Assembly: GCF_000275845.1 (NCBI RefSeq)
Contig: NW_006766883.1
Location: 2,563,843-2,627,842, forward strand
DNA: 64,000 nucleotides
Origin: Dichomitus squalens LYAD-421 SS1
Taxonomy: Eukaryota; Basidiomycota; Agaricomycetes; Polyporales; Polyporaceae
Reading direction: 5' to 3'
This document shows positions 14,270-53,313 of the stretch, piece after piece. Position numbers and translations under genes: made by a program. Every line of letters starts with the position of its first letter. The stretch's first letter is position 1. The notes under the pieces were generated by a model. The model saw nothing but the letters and a program-made list of their open reading frames with translations. It was not told the DNA's origin and made no database searches.

Positions 14270-14760
14270 GTGTCTGCCTTTCCTAAAGCCATCATCACAC
14301 CCAGGTTGTTCTTGATTCTGATTCCATGGAATTCCATGTCCATGGCTACCACCTGCAGAGCGTGTGCAACACTCTTGGGATCAACTGCCCGGCCAGCAAT
14401 CCCCGCGCTGAGCTATACCAGCTCCTGCCATACGAGTCCGGCACACTGTGGCTCACCCACAACGTCCGAAACCCGCCAATTGTGCTTATGATCCCCTGCA
14501 GCTTCCACGCACACGTGGAGGATGTCTCCTGCTCGCGCTCTGCGTCGTCTCTCACACATCGCACCTCCCGAGCGGCTCCAAGCAGCGAGACGGGATGTTC
14601 GCCACCTTCGTCGTCGTCAGAGTCCCATCCGCATTCATTGTTACCGCCAGCGGCCTCTCCACGTCTTCCACAAGTGCGGGTGGTCGTCAGGACTTGCATG
14701 GCGGGTTCCGGTGTAATGCGTACGCGCCGCGGCGGCGGACCGGGGTGGCCGTCGGAAGAT
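14270..14760 (+). pseudogene. decayed 2OG-Fe(II) oxygenase fragment
   Basis: Two islands of the large fungal 2OG-oxygenase family can be read in shifted frames: PRAELYQLLPYESG (about 14400-14445) and KQRDGMFATFVVV.VPS (about 14583-14630). The intact gene at 48938-53055 has RCDLYKLLLYEKG and KADGMFATIVIVLPS at the same places. The HxD segment between them and the following GG..V.HG segment are not recoverable. This is a degraded relative. An antisense frame (14346-14900, minus) is probably a shadow. Confidence 0.55.
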
Positions 14761-15263: not shown

Positions 15264-16331
15264 ATGTACGCCCTCCGCCGATCCACAGCCTCCTTCCCCC
15301 GTCTTTACTCAACAGCACCCCCCAAGCCCCCCGTAAAGCTCATCGCCGAGCTCCGCAAGCTCGCCGAAGGCGTCTCGCTCACCAAAGCCCGCGAGGCGCT
15401 CGCCGCCAGCAACAACGACCTCCCCGCCGCCCTCGCGTGGCTCGACGCCGACCGCGCCGCCTCGGGCGCCGCGAAAGCCGCCAAGCTCGCCGGCCGCGTC
15501 GCCGGCCAGGGCCTCGTCGGCGTGCAGGTGCTCTCCCCCGGCGCGCGCCCCGGCGCGAGCGGGAGCGCGGTGCGCGCGGCGATGGTCGAGCTGAACTGCG
15601 AGACGGACTTCGTCGCGCGCGGCGCGCTGTTCAACAAGCTCCTCGCGGACGTCGCGCACACGGCCGCGTTCCTCGCCGAGCCCGCCGCGTCGCGGGGGGA
15701 GGGGTTCGTCCGCGAGGTGAGGCTGGACGCGCTGGGCGACGCGCCGCTGCTGGACCACGCGGACCCGGTGGGCGCGAGCCCGGCGGGGCGGCTCTCGGCG
15801 CACGCGAACACGGTCGGGGGCGCGGTGCGGGACTTGGTGGCGAAGGTGGGGGAGAAGATCACGCTGCGGCGCGCGGTCGCGGTCGCGCGGGACCCGCTGC
15901 CGTACGCGCAGCGGCGCCTGGGCCTCCGCGCGTTCCCGTACGTGCACGGGGCGGTGACGGTGCCGACGAACGGGACGAAGGGCGCGCTGGCGCTGCTGGC
16001 GTTCAGGAGCGCGAGGCTGCCGGAGCTGGTCGCGTCGGAGGCGTTCCAGAGGGAGCTCGCGGCGCTCGAGCGGTCGCTGGGCCGGACGATCGTCGGCTTC
16101 CCGGTGACGAGGGTCGGCGAGTCGGATGGCCGGGATGCTGAGGCTCTTTATGGCCAGCCTCCGGACATGTTCGTGAACAAGACGGGGAGCACGGTGTTGG
16201 AGGAGTTGCGGAATTGGGCGGATAGGAACAAGTTGGGCGGGGAGGGCAGCGGGGAGGACGCTGCGCTTGCGGTGCTCGAGTTCAAGAAGTGGTCGGTTGG
16301 GGAGCCGCTCGAGAGCACCGAGAGCTCATGA
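15264..16331 (+). CDS. TSF1: mitochondrial elongation factor Ts
   Basis: Nucleotide exchange factor for mitochondrial EF-Tu. Single exon, 355 residues. A mitochondrial presequence (MYALRRSTASFPRLYSTAPP) is followed by the UBA-like N-domain (KLIAELRKLAEGVSLTKARE, ALAASNNDLPAALAWL). The core has VELNCETDFVARGALF, the EF-Ts hallmark, and further on GEKITLRRAV and YVHGAVTVPTNGTKGALALL. The GC content is very high in the middle, and long Arg-rich frames on both strands here are shadows. The start was chosen as the ATG directly before the presequence; longer in-frame extension upstream is untranslated leader. Confidence 0.94.
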   Translation: MYALRRSTASFPRLYSTAPPKPPVKLIAELRKLAEGVSLTKAREALAASNNDLPAALAWLDADRAASGAAKAAKLAGRVAGQGLVGVQVLSPGARPGASGSAVRAAMVELNCETDFVARGALFNKLLADVAHTAAFLAEPAASRGEGFVREVRLDALGDAPLLDHADPVGASPAGRLSAHANTVGGAVRDLVAKVGEKITLRRAVAVARDPLPYAQRRLGLRAFPYVHGAVTVPTNGTKGALALLAFRSARLPELVASEAFQRELAALERSLGRTIVGFPVTRVGESDGRDAEALYGQPPDMFVNKTGSTVLEELRNWADRNKLGGEGSGEDAALAVLEFKKWSVGEPLESTESS

Positions 16332-17489
16332 GGCGTCGACTCATAGAGCTCGCTGGCCATTTACCTAGGTGAGTTCACTCAAGGCAGTGCTGGGCGAGTG
16401 ACGATGTGCTCATCCGCATCTTGCAATCTAGACAAGTTGCGCTACAACAAGTATAATGCTCGTCCTAATGCCGGCTCTTCGGAGTCGTAATGCCAACACG
16501 CATCTCTACTCGACAAGTTGTGCACGCTGCCTTACAACAGGCTGTCTTGCTGGAGGAGTTTGAGAGGACGCACTCACGAATCTGGGAAGATTTCCGCGCA
16601 AAATATCGGGACGGGGATGTTGTCCCTTGCGCTCCTGGGTGTGCTACGACAAATAAAACTCGTCCACGTCAGGTAGCTATCAACACAGATCGTCGAAATA
16701 CCATGACCGGGAAATATCTGGCTTGCACGCGCCTGACGCATGTACGTCTATCAGCGGATCGAACTCGGAGCGGCAACGTGGAGATAGCATCATTGGCAGT
16801 ATATGCGCACGCAAAACGAGAAGGGTGGGTAGAGGACGACATGATTGTTCGCCGTCTGCGGCCGCCAATCGCTCTTGGATAGCCAAGGTGCTCGAGGGTG
16901 GTTGTGCGTTTCCCGCTTCCCCTGTTTACACAAGCGCGGGTGGTATAGGTTGCCTTTGGAGGCACTGAGCTGAAAATAACGGCGGATCACAGGGTGCACA
17001 TCGGGGACAGAGGGCCCGCGAGCAGTCATCTGAAAGGCCCGATTGGCCCGACCAAGTCTGACCGAGAGTCAAAGCCCCGAGCAAATCGGTGGCCCCATAC
17101 GCGACCGTCCGCGTCAGCGCGCGAGGGCGAGGTGGTGGTCAAAGACCAAGAGCGAGTGTGACAAAATGCAGAGAGAAAAGCAGCGGGCCAAGGAACGTGA
17201 CAAACGAACACGGCCGTTTGCTCGCAGAGCCCGCTTGAGCCTCAGGCCGTCACTGGCGCCGTCCTCTCCGCCGCCTCCGCCAGGCTCAGTTCTCTTGCAT
17301 CGTGACCTCACACCCGCTCACTCCACCCCCCCCCCTCCCGCCCTCATTCTGCCGGTCTCGCCTCGCCGCATCCGCGCCGCCGACACTGTGTTGCTCAGCC
17401 TCCTCTCCTGCTGCTTCCCACGAAAGACCCCCGGCCTCGCGCGCTCTCGTGCGGACGCAGCCCACCCCGCCGGACACCCGTCCCCCGCC
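16332..17489. other. intergenic with one unassigned open frame
   Basis: A 130-codon frame at 16490-16882 (plus) begins MPTRISTRQVV and has a helical start (LQQAVLLEEFERTHSRIWED) but no recognisable domain and no support from splice signals. I do not call it a gene. The rest up to 17489 is the C-rich leader of the taxilin gene. Confidence 0.35.
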
Positions 17490-48937: not shown

Positions 48938-51900
48938 TCAAGTCAAGTCGATGACGTCCCCCAGCACCTTCGACGTATCCTTCTTCTTCCGCTTCGTCGG
49001 TGGCGGCCGCTCGGAGCCCTCTCCTGCCTCCTTGTCCAGACGCTTCTTTGTCGTATTCGAGGTAGTCTTCGCTATGGTCTTGGACGGACCGGCAGCCGTG
49101 TTGCCTTGTGATGCAAGTGGGGCGTCCGCACCTAACTGTGTCGCAAGCATCACATAGTCCGGACCGAGTATTGCTTGTAGCTCTCGAGCGTCGGTACTGA
49201 TTGCATCGAGCAACTTCCGGCCCTGGCTCTGGTTCTCTTTCCACTGCATCGGTTTGATGAACTTCGGCAGCTTCTCGACCTACAGGGTATCCGTGTCGAA
49301 TCTCAGCCGCCTGAAATGAAGTAACATCCTGGATTGTGCATACCACCAACCCTTGAGGCCGTGCATTGTCCGCTTGCCAGGTTGCGATGTGCAGCGCGTG
49401 CACCTTGAAAAACTTCTCGATGTGCTTCCTGTTGGGTGCTCCAAGATGCGGGAACGTGTGGCGCGACTCGGCTGACTCTGCGAGCCAACGACGGACGTTT
49501 GGGCAGTAATCGCATGCACACGTCCAGTCGTCTAAGCTGCGAAGGGGCGCGAGAGTGCTATCGGATGGCTGCGGTCCCATCACCTGTCCGACCCAGTCAA
49601 GGAGCAGCGTTCGTAGTGGCGCGGCGATCGGATCAGCAGTAACCCGAAGCTTGTGCTTTTTGAGCAGAGGATGAAGCTTCTTCAGGAGCGGGATGACTGT
49701 GGACCGCAAGAACTCCGCGGTCAGCTCCCCAGATTTGCTGAACAGCCGCTGCAGGACCTCGAAGCATGCATCTGGAACTCCCACTTCCACGCAGTACTTG
49801 AGAGCATCGTGTGCTGCGTCAACTCGATGTTTGTCGATGTTGGGATGGCCCCACCCAGTAGGCCGGAAGTCGACGATCGTCGCATACTTGGTCACAAGGC
49901 GCGACATGACCGTCTTCATTGGCCCCCTATCGAGGTCAATAGCCTTGCCTTTGGCATGTAGTCCATCGAGGAGGCTCTTGAGGGTGTGAGGTGATATCGG
50001 CAAGGTCTCGAGTTTGGGGAGAAGCCTTGTCCAGGGTAGTCAGTGACTGAGCAGTCAAGATAATCCATCATCCTCACTGAGTTTCTGCCAAGCCCGATTG
50101 GCCAATCGCTTCTAGGGCTCCGCAAATAGAGATAAGGTCGCTCGCAGTGATTTCATGGGGGAGGGCGGCAATCACGTCGAGGTATGATGAGACCACCCAT
50201 TTAGCGAAGGGAACCACATCGGGGAAGGGCTTGCTCGCAGGATAAGCACGAGCGGCCTCTCCGATGCAAGACAGAACTGGAATCCCTGTTTCGATGCCGT
50301 ACTGCCGGTCCTCAGCCTGCATCAGGCGACTAAGGACCTTGAGGAGAAGATCATCCCAACCACAGTGGAGACATATTTCTACGAAAGAGGTCGCCAGCTC
50401 TGTCGACGATCGACGCTCGTAGAAATCATAGTCGGGGTAGAAATCAATTTTGGCCACGGCGACGACCATGAGGTCTCGCGTCATGCGTGTCCGAGCATCC
50501 GAAGATATGTTCGGCTGGCTATTGATAATATGGACAAGGGCAGGTATCGCGGAAGGTCTGCAGCGCGACTTCAATTGAGGAACGACGCTGAAAGAGAGAA
50601 GATCAGTACCTGCATGAGACCTACGAGTCAAGTAAAACGGTGATACCTATTTTCCAAGAATTCGGCGTCGTAATGTTCGAGGACGAGACTGACTAACAGG
50701 CCATAGTCGTCTCCGCTCGATACGGTCAAGTTCGTGAGCCGGTGCGTTCGTCGATCCGCAATCCATCTCTTGATAGGTTCTGCGACTTTCTTCGCCAGTT
50801 TGCCGGTGGTCCAGGACTCAAACTGCGACAGGAACTCCAGGACATCCACATCGGATATGGTACCTTCTAGAACATCATTCATCCTAAAAAGCGGCGACGT
50901 CAGATGAGTGTAGACGATCAATATATGTACGGGAATGGTCTCTGACAATGACTCGACGGCTTCAAATCCGAACGTCTCGACAGCGGTGTAGATACTCTCC
51001 TCCACCGAGGACATCGCCAGGCTGAGATACGGAAGACATTTGTCCATTGTCTTCTTCCACAGTGCAAGGTCCTTCCATCTACAAGCGGCAGCAGTCGCGA
51101 CGGAGGACACGGCTTGCTCATGGTCAGCATTCTCGTCATCCGCATCCACGCGGCTGAGGATATACTGCACTAGCTGGTTCTCCTCCAGGGTAGGAGACGT
51201 CGTCGTCGAGGATTCGAGCTCCTCGCACGCGTGCCAAAAGGCGTCCTCGCCATATACAATGTCGTAATGCGTCCAGGACGGCCAGATGACCACAACGGTC
51301 CGGAGATAGACTGCGCAAAGTCAGTCTATGGCATGACAGACTCGATAGGTACGCATGTGCTCACTTCGATCGATCGTCGCGCCTTCCTGGAGGACAAAAG
51401 TCAGGGCGGTTTTACAGAAGCGACATGACACACTCACGTTCCCGGTGTAACCTCCATGATCGTCTTGCTCGTCATACTCCCCGGAGGTGATCTCGCGGGC
51501 GAATTTCTCGGGGATAACTTCCTTGTTCACATCGTACTCAAAGACACGTCTAATGAGGCTCCCGCTCAAGTCAACGAGGTTCTCCAGCTCCACCGAGGTT
51601 TCCTCCACTTCAATCATCGATATCTCGTCGCTAAACGACATCGCGTCCCCATATCCATGTTCAGTACAGATCAGGTTAGCGAACCCCAGGTGAAAGCCAA
51701 GGGGACGCGCGACAGCCTCCAGAGTCGAAACCAACTGAGCGTCCGCGCCCTTCAGCGCGCTTCCGCTGAGGTTCGCCTGGGAATACTTGTGGCTAAGCAG
51801 ATACATTATCTTGCTGGGACCACCGTCGCCGTCCCTCCATGACGTGAGGACATCGCGAAGGCGCGAGGCGGCACCAGACTGAGATGGCAGAGCTGGTCGT

Positions 51901-53055
51901 AATGACTTTGTGGTATGAATGAGGTTGAAGGAGAGGGCAAGCCGGTACCCGCTCGTGATAGGCTTCACCTCGTGCTGAACATCCGTATACCATGCGAGCA
52001 CAGTCGTGTCAGTGTGACTGTTGACGCTGCAGTTTATCACTTCTGAGGTGTCACCATGGGTAACATGTACGGTGCCGCCACTGAACCTTGAAGGCAGCAC
52101 GATCACGATCGTAGCGAACATGCCGTCCGCCTTCTCGGTACTGAGCTCGGTCAGATGGGCACATCGGGAACGGGAGGTCCACTTACTCGACATGAGGCTT
52201 GAAACTGGACTCTCATATCAGCTTTTCCCGATGGATGGATCAGATTTGGATGTTACGTACTGTGAGCCTTTCTCATATAGCAGGAGCTTGTATAAATCGC
52301 AACGAGGTTGACTGGCATCGTAGTTTACTCCCAGCGTCTCACAGACGGTTCGGACGACCCGATCCATGAAGGGAGCCCAAGCTCTGTTCTCGAACTCGAC
52401 CTGGGCAAGTCATATGGTCAGTGCTCAAAACAGACTGCGAAAGACCTCATTAGCCCAGTGACATACTTGCTTGCCGTCAATCTCCCACGTATCCCGTACT
52501 GACTTGTCTACAACTGTCTTGGTAGCCTTGCCAAAGGGGGCTTGCTGAGCGCGAGCCTTGATCGCCTCCGCATCTCGCACATTCAAAGGCAGTCCAATAG
52601 ATCCGATGCCAGTGATCTTGAGACAAGGGTTGGGTGCTTCCGGGTAAGCACGGTGGAACGAAGACGAGCCGGAGAATGTAAGGTCGCTCTTGAAGATGTT
52701 CTCCAAGCGATTCTGTTATAAGTCAATGAGGGTAGCTCAACAACATCACCTCTCAAGCCAATACCTACACGTATGACACGAGTTTGTTCCGTCAGCTCGA
52801 CGTCCGAGTCTGAGCTACGGTCAGTGATGTATTGTGCGCGAGGGGCTTTCCCTAGAAATTCGTGTCAGTCCGTGGCACAGTCCTACACTTCTGTATAGTC
52901 ACCTCCAGTGCTCTTCCTGGCCGTTTGCTATGTTGAGGGTGATATCAGTCTTGCAGCAATCCCCCACGCAAACTCCAGAAGCTACCGCCTTCGCGCCCCA
53001 CTCGCCGCGTCGTGATTGAGTATCTCAGCCACGAACATACCTTGGTTCGGATCAT
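48938..53055 (-). CDS. large 2OG-Fe(II) oxygenase carrying a histone H3-like N-terminal tail
   Basis: Twelve exons: 53055-53041, 52927-52903, 52851-52769, 52712-52467, 52400-52261, 52204-52187, 52140-51438, 51386-51365, 51310-50647, 50587-50078, 50025-49344, 49279-48938; 1149 residues. The first three exons read MIRTK, QTARKSTG and GKAPRAQ, matching the histone H3 tail at 17 of 19 positions after Met. A short acidic linker (DRSSDSDVELTEQT) leads to the 2OG-oxygenase domain: ITGIGSIGLPL, RCDLYKLLLYEKGSHFKPHV, iron ligands H174 and D176 (HVD, in an 18-nt exon), DGMFATIVIVLPSRFSGGTV, distal H232 (VQHEV) and 2-oxoglutarate arginine R242 (GYRLAL). The residues needed for catalysis are present. The remaining 700 residues are helical, and the end has a nuclear-signal-like TKRKKKDTSK. 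The substrate is unknown. Confidence 0.88.
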
Positions 53056-53313
53056 CGCTGCACACTTCTGCGCGTTTCAAGAGGTAAGTTAGAGTGTGAT
53101 GTGAGTTAGATATGGAGGACTAATGATAGGTTGGGAGCCGTCGGTGGGCGACCATGACAGTCGTAGGACGAGACGCGTTCTGGCTACAGGCGCGCAGCTA
53201 CTGCATGGAGGCGCTGTATCACATGACCGTCGCGTCTTGAGCGTCCAAAATTCTATGAGGTCAGCGCCTGAGGCCGCACAGAGCTTCGAGACGTTTTCTC
53301 CTCCTTATCCGCC
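53056..53313. promoter_or_regulatory. divergent promoter between the H3-tail oxygenase and NAF1
   Basis: 258 bp separate the two oppositely directed ATGs (53055 minus, 53314 plus), so the promoters overlap. No specific motif recognised. Confidence 0.45.

Follow-up and report, generated by a model that had tools for sequence, protein, structure and literature searches.

A gene on the minus strand of the window (the whole 64-kb stretch of DNA that was analysed) is predicted to encode a 2OG-Fe(II) oxygenase whose N-terminus is a histone H3 tail. We give roughly even odds to a model in which the 5' end of an H3 gene was fused to the oxygenase and the tail acts as a K9-type handle, methylated by a Clr4/Dim-5-type enzyme and used for placement by HP1. 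As judged from the genomic sequence, the established part of this model comprises the reading frame of the fusion, intron positions shared with an H3 gene, intact predicted ligands of the enzyme, and a tail conserved against near-saturated synonymous change.

The spliced model derived from the sequence has 12 exons, ends at position 48938 and yields a product of 1149 amino acids (coordinates of this gene refer to the minus strand of the window). Exon 1 (53041..53055) encodes MIRTK, the start of H3 up to K4 with isoleucine in place of A1, and shares its end with an exon of H3 C1, an H3 gene of the same fungus. The 113-nt intron 1 (52928..53040, phase 0) follows the K4-equivalent and occupies the same position in H3 C1, where its sequence is unlike. 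Exon 2 (52903..52927) encodes QTARKSTG, the K9/S10 module, together with the first base of G13, and is followed by the 51-nt intron 2 (52852..52902, phase 1 in G13, donor GTGACT), positioned as in H3 C1 and a further H3 gene, C29b. Exon 3 (52769..52851) encodes GKAPRAQ, with K14, P16 and R17, and then an acidic linker, YITDRSSDSDVELTEQTRVIR. The in-frame splice product of 53055-53041, 52927-52903 and 52851-52769 reads MIRTKQTARKSTGGKAPRAQ; the joined exons (MIRTKQTARKSTGGKAPRAQYITDRSSDSDVELTEQTRVIR) carry the frame on at 52712 into exon 4. Exons 4-7 (51438..52712; individually 52712-52467, 52400-52261, 52204-52187 and 52140-51438) encode the oxygenase domain, and exons 8-12 (48938..51386; individually 51386-51365, 51310-50647, 50587-50078, 50025-49344 and 49279-48938, the last with the stop codon) encode, according to alignment and model, a region corresponding to helical repeats of a bacterial homologue, a CxCxxC motif and a fungal-only C-terminal extension. 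All 11 introns are of the GT-AG type and measure 46-113 nt, the least typical splice sites being the intron 2 donor (GTGACT, weak at +5) and the intron 10 acceptor (AAG).

Met1 is the sole methionine N-terminal of residue 135, which itself lies inside the conserved core of the oxygenase. Since the core of the bacterial homologues begins at approximately fungal residue 43, a start at residue 135 would remove conserved sequence, and the in-frame upstream extensions of exons 3 and 4 reach a stop after 5 and 1 codons, respectively, without a methionine. Exon 1 therefore provides the only start codon found for the oxygenase, barring an overlooked exon further upstream. A gap of 258 nt (53056..53313), presumed to be a shared promoter, separates this start codon from that of a divergent neighbour which we take to be NAF1-like.

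Of the residues A1-Q19 of H3, 17 of 19 are equal in the oxygenase tail, the changes being A1 to I and K18 to A, and QTARKSTGGKAPR, which holds the ARKS motif in its H3 context, is identical to H3 5-17. In a phmmer search of PDB sequences with the first 449 amino acids of the protein, H3 tails ranked first (best E 2e-4). A DNA pattern for T-A-R-K-S-T-G gave six matches in the 40.3-Mb genome, namely four H3 genes, the CENP-A-like gene and the tail-oxygenase gene (reversed control pattern, 1 match); this genome-wide scan thus found no further oxygenase with an unsplit TARKSTG tail, and the exact TARKSTGGKAP DNA pattern had no match in viral contigs. These results bear out what an earlier note on this DNA had read from the letters, namely three exons joined in frame across GT-AG introns and a 17 of 19 match to H3, and they support its view that chance is not a realistic explanation of the tail. 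Its suggestion of K4 recognition and COMPASS involvement is the weaker part. The protein begins Met-Ile-Arg-Thr-Lys, and not with the free Ala-Arg-Thr-Lys of an H3K4-type mimic; methionine is kept before isoleucine under the methionine-aminopeptidase rule, and H3K4 readers want a free alanine N-terminus, so the isoleucine should leave the methionine on and probably spoils the N-terminus that these readers need. The protein is not itself a histone, because PF13640 is its only match in Pfam (E up to 1) and no histone fold was detected.

The origin of the tail was evaluated by comparison with the genome's own H3 genes, of which there are at least four, plus one CENP-A-like gene. H3 C1 (C1:2931983-2931184) lies on the same contig, 315,086 bp from the oxygenase tail, and its introns, one after residue 4 (phase 0) and one in residue 13 (phase 1), are identical in position and phase to the two introns of the tail. 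H3 C29b has only the second of these in common with the oxygenase, and H3 C7 and C29a have no introns in the tail. Two introns within 60 coding nt could take 1711 possible pairs of positions, some of which are favoured by splice-site preferences. Because both positions are identical in H3 C1, descent of the oxygenase tail from an H3 gene, which the earlier note had proposed from the intron points, is strongly supported at the level of gene structure, although the tail may have come from an H3 gene other than the present-day C1. The intron sequences themselves no longer resemble each other (intron 1, z 0.7; intron 2, z 3.2, part of which is accounted for by shared splice-site ends; best blastn E 1.2), suggesting an old capture event. 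We also considered the CENP-A-like gene as donor and rejected it, since its QTATARKSTGGRPP stretch has an insertion and lacks the two introns; it shares the serine codon AGC with the oxygenase tail.

The tail differs from each of the four H3 genes at 19-21 of 57 nucleotides, but in only 2 of 19 amino acids. At four-fold sites, 7-9 of 10 differ between the tail and the H3 genes, which is near saturation, compared with 3-8 of 13 among the H3 genes themselves. None of 200,000 neutral simulations per H3 gene kept so few amino-acid changes. The same held for 500,000 simulations restricted to the 15 sites at which the tail matches none of the four H3 genes (one hit per site), where the lowest number of changes was 3, reached in 7 runs. 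Moreover, the codons of the tail prefer the usage of the oxygenase body over H3 usage by 9.1 natural-log units, whereas the four real H3 tails prefer H3 usage by 6.5-8.5; codons of the type found in the tail are used rarely in the four H3 genes (AGC 0, GGA 2, GGG 1, AAA 1 and CGA 1 uses). That the codons became oxygenase-like while the residues stayed speaks for a history in which the synonymous changes mostly followed the capture, with the protein under constraint. At S10, the silent change from TCC to AGC requires either two substitutions at once or an intermediate with a different amino acid. Part of the synonymous change could be older than the capture if the donor was an extinct H3 of unusual codon usage. 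Overall, comparison with H3 paralogues inside this one genome provides evidence of long purifying selection on the protein sequence of the tail.

Residues 161-248 of the protein match PF13640 (E 8e-8; 33.6 bits compared with a curated cut-off of 27), and no JmjC domain was matched in Pfam (E up to 1). The predicted ligands, H174, D176 and H232 for iron (HxD/H) and R242 for 2OG, had been called intact in the earlier note, which agrees with the bacterial relatives: among 24 long homologues, the histidine, aspartate and histidine are kept in 24 of 24 and the arginine in 23 of 24. These homologues come from 28 loci in records labelled bacteria, detected in a prokaryote genome scan, four of which were left out of the count as short. 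Also conserved in all 24 are L or I at residue 44, G at 56 and P at 70 (fungal numbering), and the shared core begins at approximately fungal residue 43 and reaches as far as the CxCxxC motif; the helical repeats corresponding to exons 8-12 were identified in a structure model of one bacterial homologue. None of the 28 bacterial ORFs, some of them fragments, contains ARKS, ARKT, RKST, KSTGG or TKQTAR, and their first Met codons are not necessarily true starts. Ten aligned bacterial proteins end shortly after CxCxxC, where the fungal protein continues into an extension of the form PPPTKRKKK...VIDLT, in which we take TKRKKK to be NLS-like and VIDLT to be SIM-like (SUMO-interaction-like). With no tail motif in the 28 ORFs and no such extension in the ten aligned proteins, the fungal protein looks like an older enzyme that received nuclear additions at both termini. 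Gene transfer of the oxygenase between bacteria and fungi, in either direction, is possible; no relative of the oxygenase was found in viral contigs. PKHD-type hydroxylase models gave a weak match, below curated cut-offs, in two of three bacterial proteins scanned, and searches against solved structures returned a PKHD-type hydroxylase at E 0.22 and, in another search, nothing but unrelated proteins (E 0.32 or worse). The core as it occurs in bacterial genomes and MAGs carries no specific Pfam or NCBIfam family name in the three proteins scanned.

We propose a model in which an ancient fusion joined the 5' portion of an H3 gene with introns (its first two exons and a part of the third) to a 2OG-Fe(II) oxygenase whose family is also present in bacteria. 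The enzyme would thereby have acquired a genuine H3 tail at its N-terminus, beside an acidic linker and a C-terminus with NLS-like and SUMO-interaction-like motifs. The residue equivalent to K9, K10 of the protein (QTARKSTGG), would be methylated by a Clr4/Dim-5-type enzyme and, once methylated, bound by HP1, which would place or keep the oxygenase on heterochromatin; S10, K14 and R17 would permit the same switching as on H3. The stretch Q5-R17, unchanged in the oxygenase, spans the residues on which K9 writers, HP1 and S10 kinases rely. The occurrence of the oxygenase family in bacteria, which lack chromatin of this type, weighs against the model.

Candidates for both partners are encoded in the genome. 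At C3:158392 lies a candidate H3K9 writer, a gene whose product has a Pre-SET domain like that of Clr4/Dim-5. An HP1 homologue on C5, spliced by eye, matches the chromo (E 1.1e-11) and chromo shadow (E 1.1e-11) families, a shorter splice matching chromo only. A chromo shadow search over the genome found nothing, most likely because introns interrupt the gene, given the match of the eye-spliced form. Among 33 chromodomain matches in the genome, the eight loci examined individually are presumably retroelements and, once, a CHD-type remodeller, and of 11 further chromodomain regions screened with one motif, only the HP1 locus matched. The reader itself bears an H3K9-like segment: the HP1 hinge (C5:315900-318700, about 1027-1905) contains KPRKSTGGASAKG, in which RKSTGG equals H3 R8-G13. 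In a genome scan with a DNA pattern for R-K-S-T-G-G, from which intron-split motifs escape, 22 matches were found compared with 28 for the reversed control, so the pattern is not enriched by number. Ten of the 22 encode RKSTGG, namely four H3 genes, the CENP-A-like gene, the HP1 hinge, the tail-oxygenase gene and three others (L083, L084 and L096) that look non-coding or out of frame by ORF inspection; the striking point is thus only the identity of the genes, not their count. The gene that we label CENP-A-like on account of its divergent tail and longer loop (C15:315500-318200, 1198-2080) carries an H3-like TARKSTGG in QTATARKSTGGRPP after its insertion. Next to it, at about 165-606, is a short, nearly tail-less H3-fold gene (MPRRRSARGRSRYVPIFPRAAFDRI...), which may be another divergent H3 or CENP-A-like gene.

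We put forward tentatively, and with rather less confidence than the model itself, a broader reading of exon-level histone-tail capture, in which a histone code written on the oxygenase itself would set its place on chromatin. The enzyme would then be one of several H3-tail bearers (H3, CENP-A-like H3, the HP1 hinge and the oxygenase) that share or compete for writers and readers, and its tail might also be a substrate in cis.

To our knowledge, the histone mimics described so far consist of short motifs, which convergence could produce. The oxygenase tail appears instead to be histone mimicry by descent from H3, distinct in that homology. A search covering part of the literature, mainly titles and the beginnings of abstracts, found no H3-tail fusion of this kind. 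The segments of Swi6/HP1 and Clr4 are internal, whereas the oxygenase carries a captured tail. Swi6/HP1 is reported to be autoinhibited by an H3-mimic sequence (PMC7192584) and Clr4 by an autoregulatory loop (PMC10135481), and these H3-like or lysine-bearing segments of fungal chromatin proteins resemble the oxygenase tail in this respect. Candidate H3K9 mimics are described among partners of EHMT and CBX proteins (PMC10611923). Like such mimics (G9a/EHMT targets), the tail has an RK-centred motif of the kind methylated by H3K9 writers and maybe read by HP1; unlike their four-residue core motif within a protein, it comprises 17 of 19 residues at an N-terminus and is H3-derived by intron positions. 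Capture of H3 coding sequence in fungi is also known from hAT transposons of Dothideomycetes; according to PMC6710886, these copies are intron-less, most are truncated, and they are RIP-inactivated in P. fijiensis and five relatives and possibly active in P. tritici-repentis. The oxygenase gene differs from the captures described there in having an intron-bearing H3 5' end in a host gene with its frame intact. EGLN2, a mammalian 2OG enzyme reported to hydroxylate H3 P16 (PMC10769511), likewise links a 2OG oxygenase with the KAPR segment of H3, but there the two belong to separate proteins. The bacterial PF13640 oxygenases (28 loci) share the core with the fungal enzyme and no tail motif, and the ten aligned are without the NLS/SIM-like extension.

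The main rival to the K9-handle model is that the tail acts in cis as a substrate or pseudo-substrate: the enzyme would work on H3 tails, for example by P16 hydroxylation in KAPR, and its own tail would fill the active site until modified. P16 and its neighbours are retained, two of three bacterial homologues have weak scores with PKHD-type hydroxylase models, and precedents exist in the EGLN2 report, which remarks on further validation (PMC10769511), and in the autoinhibition of Swi6/HP1 (PMC7192584) and by the Clr4 loop (PMC10135481). We nevertheless regard this as unlikely: since the catalytic family occurs in 28 bacterial loci, H3 can hardly be its ancestral substrate, PF13640 alone was matched, with no JmjC domain, and the solved-structure searches (E 0.22; E 0.32 or worse) leave the substrate class unfixed. 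Another explanation would be that the tail is a nuclear-import or chaperone-binding signal only, with no reading of a code. H3 tails can serve as import signals, and the tail is basic; such a signal would, however, hardly need A7 and S10-T11-G12-G13 unchanged, and KRKKK is already present near the C-terminus, which makes this explanation quite improbable.

Capture might also have been favoured for the H3 promoter and start codon, giving histone-like expression, with the tail carried along without function. Exon 1 does supply the sole in-frame start codon seen, but the upstream DNA has no significant similarity to that of H3 C1, and a passenger tail is very unlikely in view of the outcome of the simulations (0 of 500,000) and of codon usage that shifted while the residues stayed. 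A gene-model artefact, with the tail exons belonging to a broken upstream H3 gene that does not splice to the oxygenase, is harder still to credit. Splicing is predicted here from genomic DNA, and the intron 2 donor is weak; against this, all three junctions preserve the reading frame, no alternative start was seen, the codons are constrained, and no match to the rest of H3 was found in the window, at a threshold that also missed the short tail exons.

The mimic described here appears to descend from an H3 gene and to have been preserved for a long time by selection, on an enzyme that is not a histone. This would mean that histone-code signals can move to enzymes through gene fusion. The tail, in which Q5-R17 is unchanged and A1 and K18 are lost, also provides a natural test of which of its positions are important.

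Distant paralogues of the oxygenase are present on C45, C5 and C47, the alignment spanning the 2OG region. In the window itself, positions 14311-14640 (plus strand) hold a degenerate fragment of an oxygenase paralogue (SVCNTLGINCPASNPRAELYQLLPYESGT; DGMFATFVVV), apparently a pseudogene. A long reading frame at about 15264-16332 (plus strand) presumably encodes a mitochondrial elongation factor Ts.
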